Source of the DNA: Alicyclobacillus pomorum DSM 14955
GTDB lineage: Bacteria; Bacillota; Bacilli; Alicyclobacillales; Alicyclobacillaceae
Assembly (NCBI RefSeq): GCF_000472905.1
Contig: NZ_AXAR01000014.1
Location: forward strand, 169-64,168
Direction of reading: 5' to 3'
DNA length: 64,000 nucleotides
The notes beneath the pieces are model-generated. The model did no database searches. It was given only the letters and a program-made list of their open reading frames with translations, and had not been told where the DNA came from. The translations under genes and the position numbers were made by a program. Position 1 is the first letter of the stretch; every line of letters begins with the position of its first letter. Below, in pieces: positions 1,265 to 54,610 of the stretch.

Positions 1265-1735
1265 TTAATGAATCCTTTGATATACCTGGAACGTATGTGG
1301 TACGACGTCACTTGGACCGGGCTGGCTCTTCACGAGCTCCCACCGCCCCTCCAACTCCGGAAAGTGGGCATCACCGTCGTAGTGCCGATGAATCACCGTC
1401 TGGTACACCTTGTCTGCGTGTGGGAGGAACAGCTTGTACACCTCCGCCCCACCGATGACAAACACGTCTTGCGACTTTGCCAGCTCTAGAATCGGAAGAA
1501 TCTCATGTACCACGTGACACCCCTCCGCTACGTAGTGCGGGTTTCGGGTCACGATGTAGTTTGGCCGACCGGGTAAAGGCTTGCCGATGGATTCATACGT
1601 CTTGCGCCCCATCACAATCGGATGTCCCATCGTCACGCGTTTGAAGTACGCCAATTCACCAGGAATGTGCCACGGAATTTTGCCTTCGGCGCCGATGGTG
1701 CGATTCTCTGCCATCGCCACAATCAAGCAGATCAT
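1265..1735 (-). CDS. folA: Dihydrofolate reductase
   Basis: Reduces dihydrofolate to tetrahydrofolate with NADPH, regenerating the cofactor consumed by thymidylate synthase. The 156-residue protein has the standard length and motifs: [26 protein letters not shown] at the N-terminus (active-site Trp and the acidic position), [15 protein letters not shown], and [16 protein letters not shown]. The ATG overlaps the thyA stop as ATGA (1732-1735), so folA is translationally coupled to thyA in a dTMP/folate operon. Confidence 0.95.
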
Positions 1736-2028: not shown

Positions 2029-2297
2029 CTTCGCCTTCAGCTAGGTTCGCTACGCCTAGCCCGTTCTCGAAGGAACTGCTGCATGTCACCATGCAGAAGA
2101 GACTATATCACGACCTATACGGTCCTCTGCGTTTCGAGTGCCAATCGCTTGCACCCTACTCCCTTTCGGGATAGTCGTTAGGCATTTATCCTGTCTTTAT
2201 AGACGACAGGAACTTAGCACGGGGTTGTCTCAGTGAGAGGTTCCCCGTTTAGCAGAGTTTTCGATAGGGGTTTCCCCCTAAAGGCGCTCTTTGATGA
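2029..2297 (-). ncRNA. ORF-less group I intron in thyA, 269 nt
   Basis: The interruption has group I hallmarks. The 5' exon ends in U (codon CGU) and the intron ends in G (GGCGAAG), giving an in-frame join CGT|TCC that restores the conserved YQRSAD. P1 can form between exon GCGU plus intron UC and the internal guide GAGCGC, with the expected U-G wobble at the splice site. A GAAA tetraloop hairpin (CCCGAAAGGG, plus-strand 2160-2169) and long-range pairing GACUAU/AUAGUC (2171-2176 with 2101-2106) fit the P5 and P7 regions. The length is that of a minimal intron and there is no homing-endonuclease ORF. Phage thyA genes (T4 td, beta22) are known hosts of such introns. The subgroup was not determined. 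Confidence 0.9.
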
Positions 2298-3205: not shown

Positions 3206-3880
3206 TTGAGCGTCACGGTAAAACTATTTGCGGGTCTCGCGGAGCGAATCGGAAAGCGAGAAATCGCTGTCGACGGAGATCACCAGATGACGGTACTCGG
3301 ACTCAAACAAGCCGTCATCCGAGCCTATCCTCAATGTGCGGACGAAATCGGCCGTTGCCTTGTCGCGGTCAACCGGGAATACGCTCCAGACGACGCGCTG
3401 ATTCAAAACACGGACGAAATCGCGTTTATTCCCCCTGTGGGTGGTGGAAGCTGCGACGAGTTCGATTCATGCCGGGTTGTGGATGAACCACTGGACGTCG
3501 CTTCGGCATTTGCGCAATTGGAAAGTGTCTATTGCGGTGGGACCGTGCTGTTTGTCGGCACCGTCCGGGAGTGGACAAAGGGACGGCAAACCGTGTCATT
3601 ACAGTATGAGGCGTATGTAGATATGGCAATTGAGCATATGCGGCGCATAGAAGCTGATGTCAAGCAGAAATACCCGGGCACCATCACGTTGCAATGGCAC
3701 CGCATTGGCACCCTGAAACCGACGGAGATTGCCGTCATTTGCGCCGCTGCTTCCCCTCACCGAGATGTGGCCTTTGAGGCGGCTCGCATGCTGATTGAGC
3801 GTTTGAAGAAGGAAGTGCCGATTTGGAAACGGGAGAACTACAAGGACGGAGAAGCGGTTTGGCAGGCCAATGAGGTGTGA
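3206..3880 (+). CDS. Molybdopterin synthase, MoaD-MoaE fusion
   Basis: Both subunits of molybdopterin synthase, which inserts two sulfurs into precursor Z, are encoded in one 224-residue chain. Residues 1-80 form the MoaD ubiquitin-like domain (VTVKLFAGLAERIGKREI, ending FIPPVGGGS). Residues 90-224 form MoaE, with FVGTVREWTKGR, YEAYVDMA, the HRIGTL segment and the active-site lysines in LKKEVPIWKREN. The start is TTG at 3206. MoaD normally needs a free C-terminal Gly-Gly for thiocarboxylation; here the Gly run is internal, so cleavage after it is expected, as described for mycobacterial MoaX. It stands alone, without other moa genes nearby. Confidence 0.9.
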   Translation: MSVTVKLFAGLAERIGKREIAVDGDHQMTVLGLKQAVIRAYPQCADEIGRCLVAVNREYAPDDALIQNTDEIAFIPPVGGGSCDEFDSCRVVDEPLDVASAFAQLESVYCGGTVLFVGTVREWTKGRQTVSLQYEAYVDMAIEHMRRIEADVKQKYPGTITLQWHRIGTLKPTEIAVICAAASPHRDVAFEAARMLIERLKKEVPIWKRENYKDGEAVWQANEV

Positions 3881-8327: not shown

Positions 8328-8395
8328 TGGTTGTGGTCGGAAGGGGATGAACATATCCTCCAACGCAACCTCTCCTCGAAGGTTTCGCTCTACCT

Positions 8396-8559
8396 CTCTT
8401 CAGGCAGGTCTCCTGACTCTCAGCTCGCGGAACCCATCAAACGCCTTCCCACGAAAACGCAGTGACGTTGATCCACAAAACGCTGATTACAGTGGCGGGA
8501 CCGTACCGGACTTTCACCGATTTCCCTATTATCTCTGTAGAACAGAGCACCTGAAGAGC
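8396..8559 (-). promoter_or_regulatory. Cobalamin riboswitch upstream of btuFCD-cobUS
   Basis: The minus-strand RNA holds the AdoCbl aptamer core: AUAGGGAAAUCGGUGAAAGU, CGGUCCCGCCACUGUAA and the B12 box AGUCAGGAGACCUGCC near the 3' end. The closing stem is CUCUUCAGG with CCUGAAGAG. A terminator follows at 8297-8327. High adenosylcobalamin should favour termination before btuF. Confidence 0.95.
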
Positions 8560-8668
8560 TTTTCAATTTCGTTTGCATCATAGTGAATCGACGGAACAAT
8601 GTCAATCGCCTTCGTCGAATTGCCACGAACTGTGACGACGGAGTTGACTGTCCCTGGTCTCCAGCCCA

Positions 8669-11139: not shown

Positions 11140-11194
11140 CGTCATTGCACCTTCGTGCAGCGACACCGACCTATCGACCGTAGGTACAGGGTGT

Positions 11195-11365
11195 ACAAGA
11201 AAGGCAGGTCTCCTGGCTCGGGGTCGTCACCGGCGACTCACCTTCCCAAGCGTTTACGCGCTCAGTGGCATCGAGAGTCGAGGCTCACCCATACAGTGGC
11301 GGGACCGCACCGGACTTTCACCGGTTTCCCTATTATGTCACTCCGCGGAGTGAACACCTTTCTTG
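11195..11365 (-). promoter_or_regulatory. Cobalamin riboswitch upstream of cobT-bluB
   Basis: A second AdoCbl aptamer on the minus strand: AUAGGGAAACCGGUGAAAGU, GCGGUCCCGCCACUGUAUG and the B12 box GCCAGGAGACCUGCC. The outer stem is CAAGAAAGG with CCUUUCUUG. It controls the cobT-bluB/adenosyltransferase operon through the terminator at 11106-11139. Confidence 0.95.
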
Positions 11366-12027
11366 AATGTTCCGTTGTAATGCGCATATCAACGCTTTCC
11401 GCGTCACAAAATCCATGGTAATGCGAACGAGGGGTGATGTCCAGCTTTCGTATCCCCTGAATCTACGGCCTTTTTTAACATCACTCGATGTTCGTGCTGG
11501 CAACCCATTGAATCCTGAAGAAACTCCCAACACAGTGAGTGTTACGTCGGTCCACCGCAAAACTTCTACCAAGTAACGTGGCTCAATGTGTAAAGACGCT
11601 TAGCTTCTCATGCGTTGTGATACAGTATCGACCTCGCCGTGTGGCCACCGCCAACGAATCTCTGCCATTCAACTTTCGTCCTAACTTAGCCTCTAATTGA
11701 GACGTAATTTTATCGCCTTAATCCTGTTTCGCATTTCGTAGGATCTGTTCCCATAATGCAGGATCAATGTCGTCACTGCCCGCGCCGTCGTCCTCTGGAT
11801 CATAAAGGGAGTCCAATAATTCTGTGAAAGAATCACAGACGTAGAATAGTCCTACGCATCCGGCTCAGGCTGCCCCCCACAAAGGCTGGTCTCAGCTTGT
11901 CCCGTCAAACTGCAACGCCAAAGTGTTCCATGCCCCCCATTGAATTCGTGCATAAGGACGGTCGAAGGACACGGAACAAGGAGACAGGTGAACGTACCAC
12001 CTATCTCCCAAATGCTCATTGGTACAT
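11366..12027. other. 662-bp region without a supported gene
   Basis: The region lies between the second B12 riboswitch and the end of spoVR. It presumably holds the riboswitch promoter on the minus strand. A minus-strand open stretch ending at 11718 (acidic, DPEDDGAGSDDIDPALW) has no start codon or ribosome site and is closed by a stop upstream; it may be a gene relic. Nothing else is convincing. Confidence 0.4.
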
Positions 12028-50681: not shown

Positions 50682-50702
50682 ACGCGTTCGTCTCCCTTGC
50701 AC

Positions 50703-50899
50703 TGCCTACGAGGTTAGCTGACGGGTCGGGACTGCAAGTTGCCCCTTCTCCACCACAAATCGGCGAGAATTCAACCCCCACTCCAGACGCGCACAAGCGC
50801 TGCCATGCGGTGTACACCGATGGGTAACTGTCCAGAATTACGCGGCGTTCCACGGAACGGCTGCGCGGTTCCCCCGCTTCTCCGAAGGAGAACTCGGCA
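50703..50899 (-). promoter_or_regulatory. ydaO/yuaA-type c-di-AMP riboswitch
   Basis: The minus-strand leader has GCCGAG near its 5' end, the AGCGGGGGAACCGCGC segment, GGGGGUUGAAUUCUC in the middle and the family hallmark CCGUCAGCUAACCUCGUAGG at its 3' end (50705-50724). These appear in the order of the ydaO/yuaA class, which senses cyclic di-AMP. No classical terminator follows; the ribosome site AAGGGAG is 10 nt downstream, so control may be translational. Confidence 0.85.
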
Positions 50900-50902
50900 T
50901 TA

Positions 50903-50951
50903 TGATAGCGCTTACATTTTGTATTATACACGCGCCATTTTCGGTTGAAAA
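50903..50951 (-). promoter_or_regulatory. Promoter with cre site before the c-di-AMP riboswitch
   Basis: Minus strand -35 TTTTCA (50946-50951), 17-bp spacer, -10 TATAAT (50923-50928). TGTAAGCGCTATCA at 50903-50916 fits the CcpA cre consensus with one mismatch and covers the expected start of transcription, a typical repressing position. Confidence 0.65.
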
Positions 50952-54335: not shown

Positions 54336-54610
54336 AACCTCTCGTCCAGCGTATAGGACGAGAGGTTGGAATCCCGCGGTACCACCTATATTGAGTATTC
54401 AGACGCTGCACGTGCAGCTCCGAACCACTCCCCTTGCAGCCAATAACGCTGGCTCGCGTTTCGCAGTACTGGCATCTGCTTTCCCGCGAAAGCCTCCGAA
54501 ACGAGTTCGCAATTCTCACCTGGCCGACTTTCACCTCAACGCCGGCTCTCTGTACAGGTGCGATGACTGCTACTACTTTTCTTCAACGGCTCCATATCCA
54601 CCTTGATCAA
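54336..54610 (-). promoter_or_regulatory. T-box riboswitch of leuS
   Basis: The minus-strand leader has the AGAGAGCCGG/GGUGAAAGUCGG stem I segment, the T-box GGTGGTACCGCGGGATTCC (about 54369-54387) and, at the 3' end, a 12-bp terminator AACCTCTCGTCC/GGACGAGAGGTT (54336-54367) with TTATTC. Uncharged tRNA-Leu should stabilise the antiterminator. The specifier codon was not pinned down with certainty. Confidence 0.93.

Follow-up and report, generated by a model that had tools for sequence, protein, structure and literature searches.

Evidence for a group I intron without an endonuclease gene in the chromosomal thymidylate synthase gene of Alicyclobacillus pomorum

The window analysed here is a stretch of 64,000 nucleotides from Alicyclobacillus pomorum DSM 14955 (contig NZ_AXAR01000014.1), and positions are counted from its first letter. 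On its minus strand the thymidylate synthase gene thyA runs from 2882 to 1732, including a 269-nt interruption located 2.2 kb from the end of the contig. Exon 1 occupies 2298–2882 (195 codons, with a TTG start according to the ORF tool), and exon 2 occupies 1732–2028 (98 codons plus the stop codon) and overlaps the start of the next gene downstream, folA, for dihydrofolate reductase (1265–1735, minus strand; Pfam DHFR_1, 181.7 bits). Beyond folA there is an isocitrate lyase gene, and on the opposite side of thyA an ORF that combines ThiS and MoaE domains; with such neighbours the setting of thyA reads as chromosomal. The ThiS/MoaE ORF itself (3206–3880, plus strand, 224 aa) looks like a fused molybdopterin synthase. 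Elsewhere in the window, two cobalamin riboswitches (8386–8569 and 11186–11376), a c-di-AMP riboswitch (50688–50909, minus strand) and a T-box leader (54351–54595) score above the Rfam cut-offs.

The interruption (2029–2297, minus strand) is in phase 0 and falls between the Arg and Ser codons of YQR/SAD. Excising exactly these positions yields a single thyA frame of 293 codons across YQR/SADIFLG, and the protein spliced in silico matches the Pfam thymidylate synthase family over its full length (413.4 bits, residues 2–293). The unspliced frame runs for 222 codons to a stop and covers only positions 1–170 of the 266 in the Pfam profile. The Rfam model RF00028 scores 71.2 bits at 2079–2307 on the minus strand, above its cut-off of 50 (window-wide E = 4.5e-16), and this match in thyA is the sole one in the whole genome. 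It stops short of the two 3'-terminal hairpins P9.1 and P9.2 (2076–2040) and of the terminal G (2029). A preliminary description of this DNA had proposed a 269-nt group I intron splitting the YQRSAD of thymidylate synthase; its boundary is right to the base, and its coordinates are better than those from Rfam. The folding energy of the intron is also low (−105.5 kcal/mol, z = −5.0), and none of 200 shuffled sequences was equally low. A covariance model built on eight same-site introns, with the window excluded, matches 2023–2306 with 234.1 bits; in the same search it matched none of four intronless thyA loci, and it matched group I introns of other genes more weakly (98.8 bits for locus L003 and 27.3 for L002). 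A group I covariance-model search had been suggested as a check in the preliminary description, and it is answered by both models. The absence of an endonuclease gene, likewise claimed there, was borne out, the longest plus-strand ORF in the intron being 22 aa with no endonuclease remnant at E 0.01. These results support the reading of 2029–2297 as a group I intron without an endonuclease gene, in a chromosomal thyA.

A secondary structure was drawn by hand on the window sequence, with all elements on the minus strand. P1 (2284–2301) pairs exon GCGU and intron UC with GAGCGC and places a U.G pair (2298/2287) at the 5' splice site; at the other end, the last base of the intron is its terminal G, at 2029. 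After P1 come the P2 hairpin with a GAAA loop (2265–2280), the 5' strand of P3 (2252–2257, pairing with the 3' strand at 2125–2130) and P4 enclosing P5 (2220–2247; P4 is 2243–2247 with 2220–2224, P5 is 2228–2238). P6 and P6a occupy 2182–2218 (P6 is 2217–2218 with 2182–2183, and the P6a hairpin is 2189–2211); the P6 segment of the window is 31 nt, and P6a is the point that holds the endonuclease gene in the long relatives described below. The 5' strand of P7 (2171–2176) pairs with 2101–2106, and the remaining elements are the P7.1 hairpin with a GAAA loop (2161–2170), the P7.2 hairpin (2136–2156), the P8 hairpin (2112–2124), the P9 hairpin with a GUGA loop (2079–2096), and the P9.1 (2063–2076) and P9.2 (2040–2060) hairpins. 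Thus the P1, GNRA-capped hairpin and P7-type pairing that had been noticed in the letters can all be found, with GAAA on P2 and P7.1 and GUGA on P9. The P3–P8 and P4–P6 core and the P7 guanosine-site helix are all present and fully paired in the window. Subgroup IA is recognized by P7.1 and P7.2 between P7 and P3; both hairpins lie there in the window, and in some relatives P7.1 pairs poorly (80.6% of cells). As folded here, the intron is of the group I type with P7.1/P7.2 and P9.1/P9.2.

In an alignment of 12 same-site introns, 95.6% of cells are paired across the 65 pairs of this structure, a count from which P6a is excluded because endonuclease remnants misalign it. Versions of the structure slid along the sequence drop to 28–45% paired cells, a comparison biased in favour of the drawn structure because it was drawn on the window. 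Two-sided changes were observed in 36 of the 65 pairs versus 20.7 in shuffles, with kinship among the aligned rows inflating such counts; for P3 they are seen in four of six pairs. For four of five covariation measures the observed value was matched by no shuffle out of 500; for the fifth (further pair types), three of the 500 matched it. P7 and P4 are nearly invariant across the 12 introns and so give little covariation evidence either way, and P9.1, with 77.1% of cells paired, is the least consistently paired helix across the family.

Introns at the same site were sought with a pattern that joins the 3' strand of P7 to exon 2 and leaves exon 1 unconstrained. Run on 84,980 species genomes, this exact pattern found 19 loci, and in at least nine genomes (the exactness of the pattern makes its counts a lower bound) thyA is split exactly after the Arg codon. 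The other 10 loci were set aside, with no split thyA. The nine introns are in Bacillus sp. FJAT-25509 (1060 nt), FJAT-14578 (335 nt), AFS055030 (276 nt), AFS088145 (278 nt) and AFS001701 (343 nt), Priestia abyssalis (320 nt), Lysinibacillus composti (389 nt), Lysinibacillus antri (288 nt) and Gottfriedia acidiceleris (293 nt). At four of these nine other chromosomal loci the flanks were compared with protein families, and ten neighbouring proteins match ordinary cellular ones. In viral contigs the same pattern found a split thymidylate synthase in four of five cases (L023, a match with no split thyA, was dropped), and a P1–P4 pattern found 17 further contigs, 13 of which adjoin thymidylate synthase sequence; L082, L085, L088 and L089 matched with no split thyA and were dropped. 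Among the 13 retained, tblastn showed nothing but exon 1 in L077, L081 and L083 and nothing but exon 2 in L080; these four, together with L086, did not enter the length, stop and tree counts, since their 3' splice site could not be located. Two named Bacillus phages, KKP_4047 and SPbetaL1, have an intron in this position too, and the KKP_4047 locus is annotated as two thymidylate synthase genes. In total, 19 viral or phage records have an intron at the site, and 18 of them are alike at P1–P4. As P1 requires, CGT encodes the Arg in each of the 13 loci that were found with exon 1 unconstrained. In Klebsiella phage RCIP0023 (OR532817.1, 285196–285828), a thymidylate synthase match breaks off at query residue 195, which is again this boundary.

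Plain similarity searches separate this family poorly. A blastn search with the intron is unspecific, with 908 phage records at E up to 1, none covering 80% or more; among the 20 matches listed the best is Klebsiella phage IME184 (149 bits, in a DNA polymerase region), and T4 nrdD introns, also among these 20 of 908, reach 82 bits. Eight plasmid records match in part. Scanned over whole loci, RF00028 reaches its cut-off in five of 13 intron-bearing loci and in neither of two intronless ones; a laxer scan of eight loci adds L042 (90.8 bits) and L096 (50.7 bits), and L031, L036, L040, L045, L046 and L095 have no match in either scan. Over long loci, scans with Rfam have low sensitivity: our own covariance model detects L031, L040, L046 and L095, which RF00028 missed. 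With clear same-site introns going unmatched, routine screens may undercount the family. The order has two more group I introns, L002 (in a same-genus genome, G001) and L003, which were rejected as candidates; they are not in thyA and look prophage-borne by reading only. The L002 intron (1501–1734, 71.6 bits) lies in a gene read as phage tape-measure-like, and blastn finds no similarity between it and the thyA intron.

The long members of the family indicate what the short ones have lost. Ten long introns have a segment of 804–927 nt at the same P6 point, and nine delimited long viral introns (L025, L026, L027, L078, L079 and L090–L093) contain an open ORF of 248–281 aa there. In the three of the ten long introns put to a profile test, the ORFs of L025 and L027 and that of L031 (in two frames) match GIY-YIG, NUMOD3 and I-TevI DNA-binding profiles, and the L025 product matches I-TevI chains among solved structures. 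An intact endonuclease ORF occurs in none of 10 chromosomal introns versus nine of nine delimited long viral introns, counts that are not independent because several of the sequences are near copies. In L031 the ORF is broken into two frames. L046, L032 and L034 keep its start, with most of the rest gone, and L042 keeps its end. L040 has a C-terminal piece that tblastx alone reveals, a fragment of which matched no Pfam family, and L036 and L045 have only 15 nt in common with the end of the L031 ORF. No remnant was found in L044, as in the window. Shuffled sequences gave one match in 2600 at E 1e-4 in this remnant search. Four phage-side introns (L024, L084, L087 and L095) also have no long ORF.

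The preliminary description had held that introns of this kind are uncommon in Bacilli chromosomes and that known thyA cases are mostly in phages. Regarding the first statement, a P1 pattern run on 398 sampled genomes of the class places a thyA intron only in A. pomorum (33 places in 29 genomes; 30 of the places were tested, and the remaining three, all in one genome, repeat a sequence that was among these), and the covariance model with strict filters finds 30 places in 24 genomes, in thyA only here. One genome in 398 agrees with rarity, to be set against the nine more Bacilli genomes whose thyA is interrupted at this boundary. The second statement is roughly right, with a chromosomal precedent already in print: the thyA of Bacillus mojavensis has an intron of 1122 nt encoding I-BmoI, a 266-aa endonuclease, according to PMC1995217. 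Besides B. mojavensis, no chromosomal thyA intron is named in the titles and abstract openings searched, a body of text that mostly leaves out subscription journals. That the A. pomorum intron is a new case of a known phenomenon is well supported.

The I-BmoI intron is likewise in a chromosomal thyA and belongs to the GIY-YIG family. Its junctions (exon end GCCCGT, intron end TAAGTG) are those listed in Table 2 of PMC3161791. The intron of phage SPbetaL1 (L096; 3044–4166, 1123 nt) lies at R/S and has ends identical to these letters, so that, as far as the published junctions go, the B. mojavensis intron falls between the same two codons and shares the insertion site of the A. pomorum intron. 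The genes at the SPbetaL1 locus are annotated only as hypothetical proteins. The two differ in that the intron in B. mojavensis is described as carrying the endonuclease, whereas the one in A. pomorum has no ORF and no open GIY-YIG frame. In SPbetaL1, an extra segment interrupts P8 as read from the sequence, and the longest ORF is 202 aa; the SPbetaL1/I-BmoI type would thus be a different lineage, with its segment in P8, from the P6 lineage of A. pomorum. The intron of KKP_4047 (L095) is closer, with the same site, no long ORF, 298 nt and 80% core identity, but it is phage-borne and still has a vestige of the endonuclease end. In a paper on Bastillevirinae, the subfamily of KKP_4047, a few thymidylate synthase introns are reported and most introns are IA-like (PMC11878797). 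Another Bacillus phage, beta22, likewise has an intron in its thymidylate synthase gene (392 nt, endonuclease listed as pseudo), according to a published table (PMC1995217). The ORF-less introns of AFS055030, AFS088145 and L. antri are at the same site on genome contigs (276–288 nt) and have 62–80% core identity to that of A. pomorum; they keep an early in-frame stop. The T4 td intron with I-TevI also interrupts a thymidylate synthase gene, and its endonuclease is the one matched by L025. Its insertion point is 21 nt further downstream than the A. pomorum site, and it is endonuclease-carrying in a phage, in contrast to a chromosomal, ORF-less intron.

Gene and intron point to different kin. 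In a ThyA tree of 13 intron-bearing and nine intronless rows, which leaves out 11 hosts of the 24 delimited introns, the A. pomorum protein groups with the intronless family members L004 and L005 (split support 96). In a tree of intron cores, from which L096 was left out, the intron and that of viral L027 form a pair (support 90); several other nodes are weak (34–59). With ThyA among intronless kin and the intron beside a viral one, horizontal gain followed by endonuclease loss is the most likely history on present sequences, and the donor was probably a phage. Judged by sequence identity alone, the closest introns are chromosomal copies of the Bacillus group rather than L027 (L031, L042 and L045, 80–81%; phage L095, 80%; L027, 76%). 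Compared with L042, the intron core is 80% identical in DNA and thyA exon 2 only 59%, an excess partly expected without transfer, the intron being a structured RNA. Comparison of thyA with intronless relatives in 30-nt steps gave no clear jump in identity beside the insertion of the kind expected of a co-conversion tract. The intron might instead be ancestral in the thyA of Bacilli and have been lost by most lineages: the same site is occupied in several Bacillaceae-like genomes, and the introns of L031, L036, L042, L045 and L046 cluster tightly, as do their ThyA proteins where compared. We consider this unlikely, because uninterrupted thyA genes at 80% identity are found in the one other genome of the genus that was covered and in another of the family, because only A. 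pomorum has a thyA intron among the 398 class genomes by both pattern and covariance model, and because its intron pairs with a viral one. Continued mobility, with an endonuclease supplied in trans from elsewhere in the genome, is extremely improbable; trans-acting endonucleases are described for ORF-less introns in T4 and related phages (PMC3984707), but the sole GIY-YIG match in this genome is a 592-aa frame that is UvrC-like by size alone.

Whether the cell would depend on splicing turns on what else it encodes. No ThyX was found in the genome by a search that, as a control, matched in six of 14 known genomes, and no other thyA was found, the sole thyA matches being the two exons described here. 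The circumstance named in the preliminary description as speaking against its intron, no covariance match together with a second thyA or a thyX elsewhere, is thus absent. Across the order, 11 of 59 genomes have a thyA match. Without another thyA or a ThyX, de novo dTMP synthesis should require splicing, and it probably depends on the intron in this genome. One feature sets the window apart. An in-frame stop in the exon 1 frame lies within intron nt 1–22 in 23 of 23 relatives, and the window alone of 24 has none; its first stop is at 2214–2216 (minus strand), at intron nt 82, past P1–P5. Ribosomes could, on this reading frame, advance 27 codons into the intron core. Such read-through needs no special cause once the early stop is lost, since 33% of shuffled 81-nt stretches (3288 of 10,000) contain no stop. 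Starting from the loss of both endonuclease and early stop, one might suppose that the intron is a sensor, in which ribosome entry into P1–P5 competes with folding, and translation rate, GTP or temperature sets the output of thymidylate synthase and folA; we regard this as decidedly improbable. Still less probable is an intron that is splicing-dead or too inefficient, leaving thyA effectively a pseudogene in a cell living on salvaged thymidine. The lost stop might let ribosomes disrupt folding, and splicing here is a prediction; however, every drawn helix is fully paired, folA is directly downstream, neither a ThyX nor a second thyA was found in the genome, and exon 2 has 83% protein identity to an intronless ThyA of the same genus with third codon positions only 49% identical, a gap that is a sign of purifying selection.

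The explanation that we consider very likely as a whole is a ribozyme, predicted to splice, that is a relic of a mobile family, gained horizontally and stripped of its endonuclease. A mobile ancestor family would have targeted the conserved codon boundary by means of a GIY-YIG endonuclease encoded in the P6 loop, and the lineage would have acquired the intron horizontally, with a phage as the likely vehicle. Complete loss of the endonuclease would then have left a presumably immobile intron to be inherited vertically. In the cell, the ribozyme would fold within the thyA–folA transcript, and guanosine-driven cleavage after CAGCGU followed by exon joining would give an intact thymidylate synthase. 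For the family, two structurally distinct lineages, with the extra segment in P6 or in P8, occupy one and the same codon boundary in thymidylate synthase genes, and the series from open ORFs in viruses to frameshifted, half-deleted and fully purged ones in chromosomes illustrates, at a single fixed site, the half of the homing cycle in which the endonuclease gene decays. For A. pomorum, the finding adds a housekeeping gene to the few metabolic genes of bacteria expected to need a ribozyme.
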